This document shows positions 2,485-7,381 of a stretch of 64,000 nt of DNA, in pieces. The first letter of the stretch is position 1. The number at the start of each line of letters is the position of its first letter. The notes under the pieces are model-generated. The model searched no databases, was not told the DNA's origin, and saw only the letters and a program-made list of their open reading frames with translations. This stretch comes from Gracilimonas sp. (GTDB taxonomy: Bacteria > Bacteroidota > Rhodothermia > Balneolales > Balneolaceae), in contig NZ_JAEPPI010000002.1 in assembly GCF_017641085.1 (NCBI RefSeq), positions 372,001 through 436,000 on the forward strand. Reading direction: 5' to 3'. The translations under genes were made by a program, and so were the position numbers.

Positions 2485-3128
2485 ATAAAACAGCGATCGT
2501 TATTGGTGCTACCGGTCTGGTAGGTTCTCATATTTTGAAGCAGCTTTTGGAAGATGATCGCTACGAAACCGTGAAAGTGTTTCACCGGCGAAATACAAGC
2601 GTTGAGCATTCCAAACTGGAAGAGCATATTGTTGATTTCGACAACATGGAGGAATGGAAACACCGGCTAACCGGAGACGAGCTGTATTCTGCATTGGGTA
2701 CTACCATCAAAAAAGCCGGCAGCCAGGAAAAGCAATACACTATCGATTTCACCTATCAATATGAAACAGCTAAATCGGCAGCTGAAAACGACGTAGATAA
2801 GTTTTCATTGGTTTCCTCGGCGGGAGCAAATGCTCAGTCCCGTGCTTTTTATACCAAGCTTAAGGGTGAACTTGATGAAGCCGTGAAAGAGCTGCCTTTT
2901 GAGGTTATCACCATTCTTCGGCCTTCTTTTCTGGATGGCGACCGAAGTGAAAACAGAGTAGGGGAAACCATCGGTATATATATGGCAAAACTCTTCACCA
3001 AAATTCCTGGACTCAAAAAGTACCGGCCTATCTTTGCGGGAAAGGTAGCTGAAGGGATGATCAACTCGCTGCATAAATGCCCCAAGGGATATCATATCTT
3101 TGAGCTGGACGAGATTTTTTACTTGTAG
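2481..3128 (+). CDS. NAD(P)-binding atypical SDR, HTATIP2/YbjT-like
   Basis: 215 residues starting at ATG 2481, which overlaps the stop of the M23-like gene as ATGA; a GTG at 2463 in the same frame is a weaker start. The Rossmann motif GATGLVGSH lies right after the start (residues 9-17). SSAGAN and an ALGTT motif further on match the oxidoreductase HTATIP2/TIP30-like group of atypical short-chain dehydrogenases, which bind NADPH but whose bacterial substrates are unknown. The overlap suggests translational coupling to the envelope protein before it. The link in function is not clear. Confidence 0.72.
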   Translation: MNKTAIVIGATGLVGSHILKQLLEDDRYETVKVFHRRNTSVEHSKLEEHIVDFDNMEEWKHRLTGDELYSALGTTIKKAGSQEKQYTIDFTYQYETAKSAAENDVDKFSLVSSAGANAQSRAFYTKLKGELDEAVKELPFEVITILRPSFLDGDRSENRVGETIGIYMAKLFTKIPGLKKYRPIFAGKVAEGMINSLHKCPKGYHIFELDEIFYL

Positions 3129-3215
3129 CATACATTAAGAAAAACTAACCCTTTCCCGGCAATCCCCCACATAACCACCGTCGTATGTATAGCCAAACAA
3201 ACTGAAGCTATACTT

Positions 3216-3644
3216 ATGACCGACTATTCCGATATTATTTACCTGATGGCAGCCATGCTGCTTTTTTCTTTGATGTCCACCAATATTTCCAAAAGCTTTT
3301 TGGCAGCTTCCGAAAGCATGGTTACCGCGGGTACTGAAAACAGATCTATTGCCCTCGCCCAGGATGAAATTGAACAGGTTAAACTGCTGAGCCGCGACAA
3401 AGAGGATTATTTAAAAGAAGGGAGCAGCAACTATATGTTCGCTGGTTATCCCAAAAACAAAACCAATGTTTATGGTTCGGATAACCAGTACGAAGAAACC
3501 TTTCGGGTAGAGGCAACTTCCGAACTTATTCAGGAACCTGATCCGCTGCTTAACCGATACCTGGTTACCGTAACGGTAACCAACACCGTTAAAGACTATA
3601 AGTCTGAAGCTACTCTCTTATTCATTAAATCCTTTGAAAAATGA
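3216..3644 (+). CDS. pilin-like membrane protein, PilV-like position
   Basis: 142 residues. An N-terminal hydrophobic helix (about 7-30) runs straight into an amphipathic helix (AQDEIEQVKLLSRDK) and then a small soluble domain with a closing beta-strand pair, the plan of a minor type IV pilin such as PilV. There is no G-F-T-L-x-E prepilin peptidase site in front of the helix; the protein starts MTDYSDIIYL. The stop overlaps the next start by 4 bases (ATGA at 3641). I rely on topology and on the order with the two genes that follow, not on a recognised family match. Confidence 0.5.
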   Translation: MTDYSDIIYLMAAMLLFSLMSTNISKSFLAASESMVTAGTENRSIALAQDEIEQVKLLSRDKEDYLKEGSSNYMFAGYPKNKTNVYGSDNQYEETFRVEATSELIQEPDPLLNRYLVTVTVTNTVKDYKSEATLLFIKSFEK

Positions 3645-4240
3645 ATTTGAATATCTTCACAAGCTTCGTAATCGGCGGCCTGTTTCTGCTCACTTTGCTG
3701 GCCTTCAATAATTTTGTTTTCAACTCAGCTGTTGAAACCACCACGGGGGTTATTACTGAAAACTCCTTCGATACCATCGTTGAAATCCTTCAGAATGATA
3801 TCAACCGCCTGGGCTACAACACCGGCACGGCCGACAATATCCTTACCATGAAAGATGGCGAGTTCAAATTTAAGGGCGACATTTATGATGAAGATGGAAG
3901 CGGAACCGTTGCTGAATACAACACCGTGGAGTGGAAGCTGACATCAAACAAAGCTACTTCCACAGACAACCCGAACGACTATATCCTGACCCGCACCTTT
4001 GACCCCGATCCTTTTTTTAGCGGAGACAGTGAAGACCTGACCTTTTACGTCACTCACCTGGAATTTAAATACCTGGATGCCAACGGGAGCGAAACCAATG
4101 ACCCCGAACTTGTAAAACAGGTTTCCATCGAGCTGGTGCACGAGTCAAAAAACTCCTACTACGTCAGCACCAAAGGGTCTGAAAAATATTACCGCTCGGT
4201 GTGGAACCGAACCATTGTACCAAACAATTTAACTTTTTAA
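3641..4240 (+). CDS. pilin-like membrane protein, PilW-like
   Basis: 199 residues. A hydrophobic helix spans about 5-28, followed by a helix containing ILQNDINRLGYNTG, which closely resembles the Q-x-D-I-x-R-x-G-Y segment of PilW minor pilins. The remainder is a beta-rich globular part with Asp-rich loops (DIYDEDGSGT). As in the gene before it, no class III signal sequence is present; the N-terminus is MNLNIFTSF. It overlaps the previous stop and is 12 bases from the DUF4900 gene, so the three are surely one operon. The role is probably in initiating or decorating a pilus or pseudopilus, if the proteins still assemble. Confidence 0.55.
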   Translation: MNLNIFTSFVIGGLFLLTLLAFNNFVFNSAVETTTGVITENSFDTIVEILQNDINRLGYNTGTADNILTMKDGEFKFKGDIYDEDGSGTVAEYNTVEWKLTSNKATSTDNPNDYILTRTFDPDPFFSGDSEDLTFYVTHLEFKYLDANGSETNDPELVKQVSIELVHESKNSYYVSTKGSEKYYRSVWNRTIVPNNLTF

Positions 4241-4252
4241 GAACCTGCTGTT

Positions 4253-5548
4253 ATGGGACGATCCATGTTAATTTTAGTGGCCGGATTTATGATTATTGCC
4301 GGCGTTATTACAAACTCGAATAATCGCCGGGCTATGATGCTGCCGCAGAAATCTGCACAGAACATCAGCGAGGCACAAGCCAAAAATTCAGCCGTCAGCA
4401 TGATCAAGATGGCCATAGAAAAAATCACCATCGATAATGAATGGGATGGAGAGATTTCGGATGTAAGCGCACTCCCCGGAACAGCTTCTCTCGAACTTTA
4501 CGATTCACAAAGCTCCTCCTATCCCGAAGGAATATCGGTAGGTCAGGGCGGCTGGGATGAGTATAAAGTGCTGCTGTACAGCGAAGCCACCTATGGAGAT
4601 TACACCGCGGTTATTGAGGTGATGATGCGCCGGGATTCTTATTCCAAATACTCCTATTTCTCGGATGAAGAGCGAAGCAGCCTGCTGGGTAACTCAGAAA
4701 TTTACTTCTACTCCTCGGATGTCATCTCCGGCCCCATTCACACGAATGGCACATTCAGAATATCTGGAACACCTACCTTTTATGGACATGTTTCCAGCCC
4801 TAACAACTGGCAAAGCCGAAATTTGTTTGGCGATAACCCTGACTTCCGGAGTACTACTGATTTTAACTCTCCGGAACGCCCTTTACCTACCCAAACCCAA
4901 ATTAATGACCTGAAGAGTGCAGCCACGGCAACCGGCTTAACTTTTACCAATCAAATTGACGTGACCTTTCAGGATGACGGCTCCGTTTCTATTTCGGAAT
5001 ATGATGAGGCTGCGGAAGTTTGGCGGCCGGCTGAGGAATATGCTGCAACCGAACACAACGGGATTATTTCCACTACCAAAAAAGCATCGGTCAAAGGCAC
5101 TGTTTCCGGTCCGTTAACCCTGCACTCAGAAGACGACATTGAAATTATGGGCGATCTGGAATATTTCGACGACCCGCGAAACAATGAGGTGTCTGCTGAC
5201 CTGCTTGGACTGGTGAGTGAAAAAGATGTGATTCTCGACAAAAACGCGCATACCTATAAGGGCTCCGCTGATGTAAACCTTCACGCTTCCATCATGGCGA
5301 TGGGTACTTCATTCCGGGTTGAAAATTACAGCTCGGGAGGCTATCGCGGAAAAATAAACTTACTGGGCGGCATCATTCAAAAGAACAGGGGACCGGTTGG
5401 TACTTTCGGTGGATTCTTTGGAGACACCGGATTTTCAAAAAACTATGAGTATGACACCCGGCTCCGGTACTCAATCCCTCCGTACTTCCCGCGTGAAAGT
5501 GTGTTCTCCATTCTTTCCTGGAAAGACCGCGTAATTGTTAAAAACTAA
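4253..5548 (+). CDS. DUF4900 protein, PilX-like position
   Basis: 431 residues with a hydrophobic N-terminal segment (about 4-20) and a helix rich in Ala/Ser (SAQNISEAQAKNSAVSMIKMA), then DUF4900-type features: a VISGPIHTNGTFRISG strand pair, SEKDVILD, ASIMAMG, a GGIIQKNRG turn and KNYEYDTRL close to the end, finishing with PPYFP. DUF4900 proteins often sit with type IV pilus minor-pilin genes in the FCB group and take the place of PilX. The protein is exported or membrane anchored and most of it is beta-helical. It carries no obvious cleavage motif. It overlaps no gene; the small exported protein follows 28 bases later. Confidence 0.7.
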   Translation: MGRSMLILVAGFMIIAGVITNSNNRRAMMLPQKSAQNISEAQAKNSAVSMIKMAIEKITIDNEWDGEISDVSALPGTASLELYDSQSSSYPEGISVGQGGWDEYKVLLYSEATYGDYTAVIEVMMRRDSYSKYSYFSDEERSSLLGNSEIYFYSSDVISGPIHTNGTFRISGTPTFYGHVSSPNNWQSRNLFGDNPDFRSTTDFNSPERPLPTQTQINDLKSAATATGLTFTNQIDVTFQDDGSVSISEYDEAAEVWRPAEEYAATEHNGIISTTKKASVKGTVSGPLTLHSEDDIEIMGDLEYFDDPRNNEVSADLLGLVSEKDVILDKNAHTYKGSADVNLHASIMAMGTSFRVENYSSGGYRGKINLLGGIIQKNRGPVGTFGGFFGDTGFSKNYEYDTRLRYSIPPYFPRESVFSILSWKDRVIVKN

Positions 5549-5576
5549 ACTCTCTTATCTAATAAAACCTACTTTC

Positions 5577-5975
5577 ATGTATAAATACATCATCAAATTC
5601 ACCGTTATTCTGCTGCTCACCATCACAGGTTATGTATCAGCAGCTGCTCAAACTACCGTTACCTTCAATCTTGATATGAAAAGAGCTCTGCAGGACAGCC
5701 TCTTCATCCCTTCAACAGATAAGGTAATTCTTGTTGGGGATGTTCGTCCCCTGAATGAGATCAATGAAATTTATCTTCGGGATGAGGAACCCATCGACAG
5801 CATTTTTACCGCCGAGGTAACATTTAAACGCTACCTGGATGGAGATCAGATATCCTATAATTTTGTTCTTGATACACAATCAAAAAAATATAAGGAGCCA
5901 CGGCCGCGCTCACTCAGATTATCAGGTAACGACATGATTCTGCCGCCCATTCAATTTGGGGCAACTGCCTGGTAG
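5577..5975 (+). CDS. small exported beta-sandwich protein, starch-binding-domain-like
   Basis: 132 residues from ATG 5577, which puts a clear signal peptide (MYKYIIKFTVILLLTITG) at the start; an upstream in-frame ATG at 5535 would overlap the DUF4900 gene and add a non-signal leader. The mature part has the V-T-F-x-L-D-M-K-R-A-L and F-I-P-S-T-D-K-V-I-L-V-G-D pattern that recurs in CBM20-like surface domains of Bacteroidota proteins, with the usual N-G-W replaced by VRPLNE. The end (PPIQFGATAW) is short. It is the last gene of the pilin-like cluster and is closed by a strong terminator. Function unknown; a pilus-tip or surface binding role is only a guess. Confidence 0.55.
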   Translation: MYKYIIKFTVILLLTITGYVSAAAQTTVTFNLDMKRALQDSLFIPSTDKVILVGDVRPLNEINEIYLRDEEPIDSIFTAEVTFKRYLDGDQISYNFVLDTQSKKYKEPRPRSLRLSGNDMILPPIQFGATAW

Positions 5976-5995
5976 CGTGCTTACTTGTATCCATT

Positions 5996-6025
5996 AAAAC
6001 CCTCTTCCGGAGGGTTTTTTATTTT
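5996..6025 (+). terminator. Rho-independent terminator after the pilin-like cluster
   Basis: A perfect 9-bp stem (5996-6004 pairing with 6010-6018, AAAACCCTC/GAGGGTTTT) with a 5-base loop is followed by a T-rich tail to about 6025. It lies 20 bases past the stop at 5975 and closes the transcript that began with the pilin-like genes. Confidence 0.9.
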
Positions 6026-6082
6026 TGAAAGTGACGGGTAATGGTTACAATCGGATACATTATAAACAAGTCCATTATCCGC

Positions 6083-7381
6083 ATGAAAAAAGTACTCTCC
6101 CTGATTTTCGTTTCACTTTTCACCCTAAGCAGCTTTGCTCAATCCACAGCCGACCTAAAAAAAATTATCGATGAGCGCGCTGATGAGATTGAACAACAGG
6201 TCATAGACTGGCGCCGGCACTTCCACGAAAACCCGGAGCTTTCTAACCGTGAATTTGAAACAGCTGCTTACATTGCTGATTACCTGAATGAGTTGGGCTT
6301 AGATGTGGAAACCGAAGTAGCCCATACCGGCGTAGTTGCACTTTTGGAAGGCGGAAAGCCCGGACCGGTCATCGCCTTACGGGCCGACATGGACGCCCTC
6401 CCGGTTACTGAACGCACCGATGTTCCCTTTAAATCGACAGCAACCGGAATGTATCAGGGCAAGGAAGTTGGGGTCATGCACGCTTGCGGTCACGATACCC
6501 ACATGGCCATCCTGATGGGCGTGGCTAAAATACTGACGGAAATGAAAGATGACCTGAAGGGAACTATTAAGTTTATCTTTCAACCTGCTGAAGAAGGAGC
6601 GCCACAGGGAGAAGAAGGCGGTGGCGAGCTGATGGTTAAAGAAGGCGTTCTCCAAAACCCGGATGTAGATGTAATCTTTGGGTTACATATTAATGATGCC
6701 ACCCCGGTTGGAACTATCCGTTACCGGCCGGAAGGAATTATGGCCAGCGTGAACAGCTTCAGCCTCGATATTAAAGGGAAGCAAGCTCACGGCTCAGCTC
6801 CATGGAATGGAGTTGATCCGATTGTGACGGCCGCTCAAATCATCAACAATGCCCAAACCATTGTGAGCCGGAATATGGAACTCACCAAACAAGCGGCTGT
6901 TGTTACTTTTGGCGTTATTGAGGGAGGTGTTCGTCACAACATCATCCCGGAAAGCATTCATCTTGAAGGAACCATTCGCGCCCTGGATGAAGACATGCGT
7001 CAACTTATTTTTAAACGACTGGAAACCATCGTCCAGAATACAGCAGAAAGCAACGGGGCCGAAGCGACCCTGACCATCCATAAAGGATATCCGATCACTT
7101 ATAACGATCCGGAATTAACGGCCATGATGGCTCCCACCCTTGAAGAACTAGCCGGAGAGGAAAATGCTGTGATTATGGATGCCATCACCGGAGCAGAGGA
7201 TTTCTCCTTTTTCCAGAAGGAGGTGCCCGGGCTGTACTTTTTTATTGGCGGAAAAGCTCCCAACCGGGAGGCTTCCGGACACCACACCCCGGATTTCTAC
7301 ATTGATGAAAGCGGGATGAAATTAGGTGTTCGGGCCATGAGCAACCTGGTGATTGATTATATGAATTCCGCCGGGATGTAA
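6083..7381 (+). CDS. exported M20 amidohydrolase (N-acyl amino acid/hippurate hydrolase type)
   Basis: 432 residues from ATG 6083, chosen because it begins a good signal peptide (MKKVLSLIFVSLFTLSSFAQ); the in-frame ATG at 6041 adds a hydrophilic leader. M20D family signatures are complete: ADMDALPV (101-108), HACGHDTH with Cys135 and His137, FQPAEEG with Glu170/Glu171, GLH with His202, and HHTPDF near the C-terminus. These are the ligands of the two-metal site in bacterial aminoacylases and IAA-amino acid hydrolases. The family removes acyl groups from amino acids or cleaves small amides; here in the periplasm. It is 47 bases ahead of a second exported serine hydrolase. Confidence 0.9.
   Translation: MKKVLSLIFVSLFTLSSFAQSTADLKKIIDERADEIEQQVIDWRRHFHENPELSNREFETAAYIADYLNELGLDVETEVAHTGVVALLEGGKPGPVIALRADMDALPVTERTDVPFKSTATGMYQGKEVGVMHACGHDTHMAILMGVAKILTEMKDDLKGTIKFIFQPAEEGAPQGEEGGGELMVKEGVLQNPDVDVIFGLHINDATPVGTIRYRPEGIMASVNSFSLDIKGKQAHGSAPWNGVDPIVTAAQIINNAQTIVSRNMELTKQAAVVTFGVIEGGVRHNIIPESIHLEGTIRALDEDMRQLIFKRLETIVQNTAESNGAEATLTIHKGYPITYNDPELTAMMAPTLEELAGEENAVIMDAITGAEDFSFFQKEVPGLYFFIGGKAPNREASGHHTPDFYIDESGMKLGVRAMSNLVIDYMNSAGM

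Follow-up and report, generated by a model that had tools for sequence, protein, structure and literature searches.

The locus described here raises the question of how genes that resemble minor pilins can be without the class III leader, which a review describes as a shared and distinctive mark of filament subunits (PMC4471445; here and below, statements drawn from the literature reflect the passages of each paper that were available). The genes in question, termed V, W and X, lie at positions 3216-5548 of a 64-kb window, by which we mean the whole stretch of DNA analyzed, from a 3.49-Mb, seven-contig genome of Gracilimonas sp. that is 98.4% complete. A first-pass annotation of the window had recognized in them a reduced minor-pilin set, had pointed out that none of them has a prepilin peptidase site, and had proposed either another processing route or a membrane-bound scaffold that is not a pilus. 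Our analysis suggests that V, W and X are very likely minor pilins, acting at the tip or in priming, of a type IV filament in which neither the major nor the minor pilins are encoded with a class III leader. Two things had escaped the first-pass annotation: the major pilin, like the minor ones, has no leader, and no prepilin peptidase is detected in the majority of the sampled genomes that carry it.

Gene starts of V, W and X

V, W and X are consecutive on the same strand, the ATG of W overlaps the stop codon of V (ATGA), and each of the three opens straight into a membrane helix. No class III signal peptide motif was found in V, W or X. In all three, the listed start is the first ATG, GTG or TTG after the upstream in-frame stop; the open codons ahead of the start number one for W, four for X and 29 for V, and there is no ATG, GTG or TTG among the 29. 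Therefore, a leader peptide cannot be encoded from any of these start codons, and the earlier observation that peptidase sites are missing holds. An acidic residue would stand at position +5 of window V if the initiator Met were removed.

X matches DUF4900 (PF16241) with 31.2 bits, just over the Pfam gathering cut-off of 29.4, as had been noted before, and the family was matched by 3 of the 15 members of the X alignment (E up to 0.1). No Pfam or NCBIfam family matched V, W or the small downstream gene S4, even at E up to 10; Pfam pilin families matched neither V nor W, nor any of the 13 members of the W alignment at E up to 0.1. Profiles of V, W and X found nothing credible among solved structures, and window X by itself found tachylectin-2 alone (E 0.072). 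A ComZ-like tip, considered as a lead for X, was absent from the results of the profile search against solved structures.

The coordinates of these genes and of the other features discussed are collected in Table 1. A terminator scan of positions 2900-6100 gave five terminator-like sites versus a mean of 2.8 in shuffled sequences, the hairpin downstream of S4 having the longest stem, and a promoter scan gave three sites versus 4.9 expected. S4, which has no Pfam match, presumably resembles carbohydrate-binding beta sandwiches. In the loci compared, it follows X frames of 412-500 aa, as well as one truncated X (L042), and no X of less than 400 aa; a 433-aa X in L036 stands without S4.

Table 1. 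Coordinates of the genes and features discussed (window positions, unless a locus is given)
Feature	Position	Strand	Description
V	3216..3644	+	142 aa; leaderless, very likely a minor pilin, PilV/GspI-like by position; N-terminus MTDYSDIIYL
W	3641..4240	+	199 aa; leaderless, very likely a minor pilin, PilW/GspJ-type predicted fold; helix 3-55, then beta sheet
X	4253..5548	+	431 aa; large, leaderless, very likely a minor pilin, MGR N-terminus, DUF4900; PilX/GspK position, tip candidate
S4	5577..5975	+	small protein, export-signal-like start at ATG 5577; accompanies long-form X cassettes
Hairpin and T tail, intrinsic-terminator-like	5996..6018	+	downstream of the V-W-X-S4 unit; stem of 10 pairs
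Wzy_C gene	L140:10520-12013
Wzy_C gene	L142:10511-12040
Wzy_C gene	L143:10528-12009
Wzy_C gene	L144:568-2064

Predicted folds, pilus operons and the machine

W, the window protein that was folded, gave the pilin lollipop with its extended N-terminal helix in an AlphaFold2 model built on 13 sequences (mean pLDDT 87.0). When this model was compared with known structures by VIA-align, ten pilin or pseudopilin entries came first with Z of 11.3-12.1, among them XcpW, Thermus TTHA1219, EpsI:EpsJ and GspK-I-J complexes, and the next, unrelated entry had a Z of 3.6; the match to 5bw0_C, which has the GspJ-type fold, reached Z 12.1 with an rmsd of 3.3 over 138 residues. The first five Foldseek matches of W were XcpW or XcpVWX chains (E 0.0012 to 0.0068, all above 0.001). 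The same lollipop was predicted for the major pilin of a relative (locus L106; 44 sequences, pLDDT 94.3, helix 2-55 plus a small sheet), for which rows 1-11 of the VIA-align results were type IV pilins and row 12 was a pseudopilin, with Z of 8.0 for PilA4 and 6.8 for the PAK pilin. The result for W is the firmer of the two, because Foldseek gave the major pilin just unrelated weak matches. The alignments also indicate the register of the gene starts: residue 1 of W falls on residue 2 of chain S in the XcpGHIJK filament model (9a1f), residue 2 of the major pilin on residue 1 of PilA4 (6xxd), its residue 4 on residue 1 of two further full-length pilins, 1oqw and 1ay2, and position 10 of its profile on residue 7 of geopilin (2m7g). 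These alignments of W and the major pilin put the gene starts no more than three residues from the point where ordinary pilins begin in their mature form.

Further evidence comes from relatives. Loci (labelled L; genomes are labelled G, the window's own being G000) were fetched by a scan with an alignment of the leaderless major pilin, termed A, and the best 80 of 435 relatives were taken, of which four (L128, L165, L173 and L176) gave no match to the N-terminal pattern. PilB was present in 44 of these 80 loci and A together with PilC and PilB in 42. All of A, V, W and X were found in 13 of the 44 PilB loci, some of V, W and X in 5, and none of the three in 26. In all 13 complete loci V, W and X follow one another in this order on the same strand, as the first-pass annotation had described them for the window, and in the 12 loci where the PilT-like gene falls inside the stretch, the three genes lie between PilB and that gene. 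The typical order is A-PilC-PilB-V-(cNMP)-W-X-PilT-PilMN-PilO-PilQ, where cNMP denotes a gene for a cyclic-nucleotide-binding protein, which lies ahead of V in L153 and L172 and is missing from six of the 13 complete loci. Such a protein is common in the pilus operons of L106-L175; it was labelled in 30 of the 80 loci, and PF00027 was found in L059:11121-11627. In addition, one pilus operon contains three tandem X paralogs (L145:15406-19138), and in four loci labelled Fodinibius or Aliifodinibius a gene of about 500 aa from the Wzy_C (O-antigen ligase) family lies between the leaderless pilin and PilC (Table 1). In view of the role of this family, it could encode a pilin-glycosylating enzyme; its candidacy as an unrecognized peptidase was rejected, since Wzy_C was found in four out of four cases.

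The first-pass annotation had reported that no PilB, PilC or PilQ is encoded in the surrounding window; this reflects no more than the separate locations of cassette and machine in this genus. The machine is on contig C1, away from the window's contig, and comprises PilC (PF00482, 96 bits), PilB (PF00437, 333 bits, with MshEN), a PilT-like ATPase, a PilM/N-like protein with a sub-threshold PilN match only, PilO (PF04350) and a secretin (PF00263, 97.7 bits); a cNMP-binding protein is encoded there as well. The two T2SSE matches in this genome are the PilB and PilT-like proteins of this one operon. There are three V-W-X sets in the genome, all away from the machine, one being the window unit and the other two being on C1. 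A first contig scan with window X gave 25 pattern matches and no confirmed relative. Among 57 related genomes, 31 have an X relative, and a T2SSE ATPase above the cut-off is present in every one of these; X relatives thus occur in 31 of the 43 genomes with T2SSE ATPase/PilB versus none of the 14 without (Fisher p 1.3e-6, kin genomes not being independent). Therefore, the co-occurrence of V-W-X with the pilus motor is not due to chance, and the association with pilus machinery that the minor-pilin identity implied was borne out, with the set lying inside a pilus operon in 13 of the 80 fetched loci.

The other two V-W-X sets of the genome, together with S4, lie at 717-18990 of L031 (C1:788001-807000), flanked by Invasin_D3 and DUF4402-like genes. 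The flanking genes encode an Invasin_D3 protein of at least 1704 aa with a tail of the type IX secretion system (T9SS), four DUF4402-like proteins (one over the cut-off), a 275-aa protein and a 1171-aa SPOR-domain protein, and a similar layout, judged by gene size, recurs in several relatives. A chaperone-usher identity, considered for the genes beside the second cassette, was not confirmed by Pfam.

It is conceivable, if doubtful, that the same leaderless assembly produces a short periplasmic pseudopilus for secretion, as in the type II secretion system (T2SS), with V, W and X handling cargo. The folds nearest to W are indeed mostly those of T2SS minor pseudopilins; however, W is matched equally well by XcpW and by the type IV-like pilin TTHA1219, and the major pilin finds a pseudopilin only after eleven type IV pilins. 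Furthermore, the pilus operon encodes a second, PilT-like ATPase, which the T2SS is not known to have.

The leaderless major pilin and prepilin peptidase

The gene ahead of PilC encodes the major pilin (MGQQQLLLVILVTIIVGIATVVAIN...), which begins MGQQQLLL. In 92 of 121 sequences its Met is preceded by an in-frame stop at a distance of fewer than six codons, and in 105 of 121 at fewer than ten; in those 92, therefore, a leader of 6-26 residues, the published range (PMC4471445), is not possible. The stop is likewise fewer than six codons away in 30 of 44 W, 38 of 55 X and 18 of 38 V sequences from relatives that fit the start patterns. These patterns were M followed by G or A for the major pilin, MG for X, MN or MD for W, and an acidic residue at position 6 for V; 2 A, 15 V, 11 W and 4 X sequences were left out, and in two W sequences (L007 and L159) the pattern fell on an internal Met. 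The second residue was counted free of these patterns in all 123 A, 53 V, 55 W and 60 X sequences. It is Gly in 119, Ala in three and Ser in one of the major pilins, Gly in 56 and Ala in one of the X sequences (two of the other three being fragments), and Asn in 41 of the W sequences; the usual start is thus MN in W, and MS, MN or MT in V. Among the 53 V sequences, all over 120 aa, an acidic residue was found at position 6 in 40, where it would take the canonical +5 place once the initiator Met was removed, at position 5 in 5, elsewhere in the first ten residues in 3, and in none of these places in 5. The class III regular expression matched one of the 123 major pilins, in a string that spans the start codon. 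The leader is therefore missing from the major pilin as well as from V, W and X.

The first 25 columns are the best-conserved part of A, V, W and X; mean identity among 44 diverse major pilins is 81% in the first 25 columns, 46% in the next 30 and 29% in the remainder. In contrast, the S4 family, with its signal-peptide-like start, is less conserved at the start (19% versus 38%). ComP was weakly matched by 7 of the 44 major pilins (best E 0.0016). An identity of the major pilin as MacB_PCD (E up to 0.1) was set aside, because the match is below the Pfam cut-off in the two members scored and because operon and fold indicate a pilin. The window's own genome has three leaderless pilin genes (C1:619011, 1061378 and 1061925), two of them some 13 kb ahead of PilC and the third at a distant site; the pilin at C1:1061925 begins MGKREL, not MGQQQ. 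In G002, a genome from the same genus, the two pilin genes have the lengths and the initial residues of their counterparts from Gracilimonas amylolytica in L108.

In the window's own genome no match was found to the prepilin peptidase models PF01478 and PF06750, nor to PF07963, the class III motif family. Among the 57 relatives, PF01478 was found in four and PF06750 in none above the cut-off, one sub-threshold fragment being present in G037. Two larger, overlapping samples were then considered, one of 117 genomes of the class, all at least 90% complete, and one of 296 genomes of the phylum. In the class sample the leaderless pilin was found in 87 and PF01478 in 13 of the 117 genomes, 76 of the 87 carriers being without PF01478, and a strong T2SSE ATPase was present in 86 of the 87 carriers (the exception being G174). 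In 9 of the 11 genomes of the class with both pilin and PF01478, the peptidase lies 4.9-6.3 kb from an extra ATPase, the highest-scoring one; in the remaining two, it is at a distance of 24 kb or on another contig. The phylum sample gave 102 carriers, 90 of them without PF01478; 41 of these carriers belong to classes other than the window's, and in 37 of the 41 PF01478 was not found. Since PF01478 is about as rare among the non-carriers of this sample (27 of 194), the leaderless pilin and PF01478 are unlinked rather than mutually exclusive. In the union of both samples, 113 of 128 carriers are without PF01478, which agrees with the earlier view that processing must differ from the usual. A survey of 45 genomes reached from 45 of the 80 loci gave 30 without PF01478, including cultured species of Fodinibius, Gracilimonas and Rhodohalobacter as well as Candidatus Chrysopegis kryptomonas. 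Fodinibius sediminis DSM 21194, F. roseus DSM 21986 and Gracilimonas mengyeensis DSM 21985 are cultured strains that carry the leaderless pilin and gave no PF01478 match. Contigs labelled Kryptonia and Ignavibacteriae also carry the leaderless pilin, and PF01478 was found in none of the three genomes searched. In several genomes of the class (G103, G105, G111, G120 and others), the open frame that contains the T2SSE match runs to about 1000-1290 codons, double the length usual for PilB; such frames are perhaps fused proteins or just long stretches without a stop.

The pilins could still be trimmed by a peptidase that the Pfam A24 models miss, for instance after Met-Gly, which would make this an ordinary pilus with a two-residue leader. 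Met-Gly is nearly universal in the major pilin and X, the canonical site follows Gly, and the sensitivity of PF01478 is imperfect, as the missed Lactococcus control indicates. However, PF06750, which did find Lactococcus, found nothing over its cut-off in the 57 relatives, and in ten operons the unlabelled frames of at least 100 aa between A and PilO/PilQ amounted to a single reverse-strand frame of 136 aa (L135), plus Wzy_C in four. Furthermore, Met-Gly is not general, given the starts of W and V, and two residues would be fewer than the published leaders have. We therefore consider such trimming improbable.

A probable filament without prepilin processing

That V, W and X are a membrane-anchored scaffold or signal-peptide proteins unrelated to pili is hardly credible: although V and W match no Pfam pilin family, the predicted fold of W, the position of V-W-X inside the pilus operons of relatives, the co-occurrence with motors, and a start that is conserved in the reverse of the S4 manner contradict it, and with it the scaffold proposed in the first-pass annotation.

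Several observations weigh against a leaderless type IV filament. With regard to the starts, the longest frame of W in L141 has a nine-residue basic extension, and removal of the initiator Met does not fit W, with its predominant Asn at the second residue. With regard to the folds, the models cover W and the L106 major pilin. For the model of the major pilin, Foldseek gave nothing significant (best E 1.2, an unrelated entry), its VIA-align matches, at Z 8.0 and below, are in a range that the tool calls common for long helices, its geopilin profile match is weak (E 0.003), and comparison of the V or W profile with the major pilin profile was not significant. The major pilin is also without the usual Glu5, and MacB_PCD matches more of its members than any pilin family does (18 of 44, best E 2.4e-4). 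No V, W or X is seen in 26 of the 44 PilB loci within the stretch examined. As for the peptidase, PF01478 detected 12 of the 14 control genomes, Lactococcus being missed yet found by PF06750, and it is present in 15 of the 128 carrier genomes; PF07963 was found in six of the 57 relatives, of which G011 and G056, both less than 90% complete, are without PF01478. PF01478 is present in all five KSB1-labelled and both Marinimicrobia-labelled carriers searched, perhaps for other systems, and prepilin processing is therefore possible in these lineages. Finally, the system is described here from genes and predicted structures.

For the leaderless filament that we favor, the following route may be envisaged. 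The genes would begin within about three residues of the site where prepilin peptidase cuts ordinary pilins, and the protein would insert into the membrane through its N-terminal helix with no charged leader. Methionine aminopeptidase removes the initiator Met where the second residue is small; at most this residue would be lost from such subunits, and it probably stays on W. The PilB/PilC motor, together with the PilM/N-like protein, PilO and secretin encoded elsewhere in the genome, would then extract and assemble subunits that are already mature, so that no proteolysis would be needed. Like GspI-J-K, V-W-X would act in priming or capping the filament, and the filament could serve in twitching or DNA uptake. 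In the window's genus, the V-W-X sets are best read as detached tip cassettes; the three sets would probably be interchangeable tip complexes in which X carries the large DUF4900 head. Interchangeable adhesive tips would fit because one locus places V-W-X beside a T9SS-tailed Invasin_D3 protein and DUF4402-like proteins.

The system would work like a type IV pilus, and shares with the type IVa pilus (PilB-PilC-PilM/N/O-PilQ, PilT) the ATPase, platform, PilO and secretin families, the second ATPase, the pilin fold and the V-W-X set. In contrast to the type IVa pilus, it has no class III leader, mostly no PF01478 and no Glu5 in the major pilin, its PilM/N is recognized weakly, and many of its operons encode a cNMP-binding protein. 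Two class-defining features, the leader and a recognizable peptidase, are thus missing, and it is a variant rather than an ordinary member of the class. The GspI-GspJ-GspK or XcpV-W-X tip complex is likewise a three-gene minor set with a large third member, and W matches XcpW/GspJ with Z of 11-12; unlike that complex, the set described here is leaderless, its X bears DUF4900, and it occurs as several cassettes per genome, far from the machine in this genome. A TadV-type peptidase, as in Tad/Flp pili, was not found, there being no PF01478 match in the own genome.

A filament-type machine without the prepilin peptidase GspO has been described for the mitochondrial T2SS, in which minor pilins are absent and the long N-terminal extension of pre-GspG is presumed to be removed by a different protease (PMC10128026); in the present system, in contrast, there is no such extension and minor pilins are present. 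The T2SS-like cluster chu_3191-3202 of Cytophaga hutchinsonii, from the same broad bacterial group (Bacteroidetes), encodes a homologous GspD/E/F/G-type machine but, unlike here, also a Peptidase_A24 protein (PMC5553014). Prepilin peptidase activity has been called essential in bacteria and archaea (PMC10128026), and a survey of phyla found the peptidase in company with ATPase and platform in all of them except Nanoarchaeota, archaea in whose filaments the peptidase is likewise undetected, leaderless pilins not being reported in the available part of that review (PMC4471445). Nanohaloarchaeal clusters without prepilin peptidase are also mentioned (PMC9563170), and MSH loci, which have no peptidase of their own, may use that of another system (PMC6668835). 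In the available parts of the open-access literature, with subscription papers and preprints outside the search, we found no report of this leaderless system.

The leaderless pilin is spread over Balneolota/Rhodothermia, and most of the sampled carriers there are without a detected peptidase. It is likely that a whole branch of type IV filaments has dropped prepilin processing, with pilin genes that encode the mature proteins, no peptidase or N-methylation, and tip sets that are movable cassettes. If this is true, a natural system that is widespread and has neither leader nor peptidase would indicate that prepilin processing is dispensable, and it would make clear why searches that rely on a leader would overlook these pilins. 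The insertion and extraction of pilins could also be studied in it more simply, and it would become testable why other bacteria keep processing and what replaces Glu5 and N-methyl-Phe.

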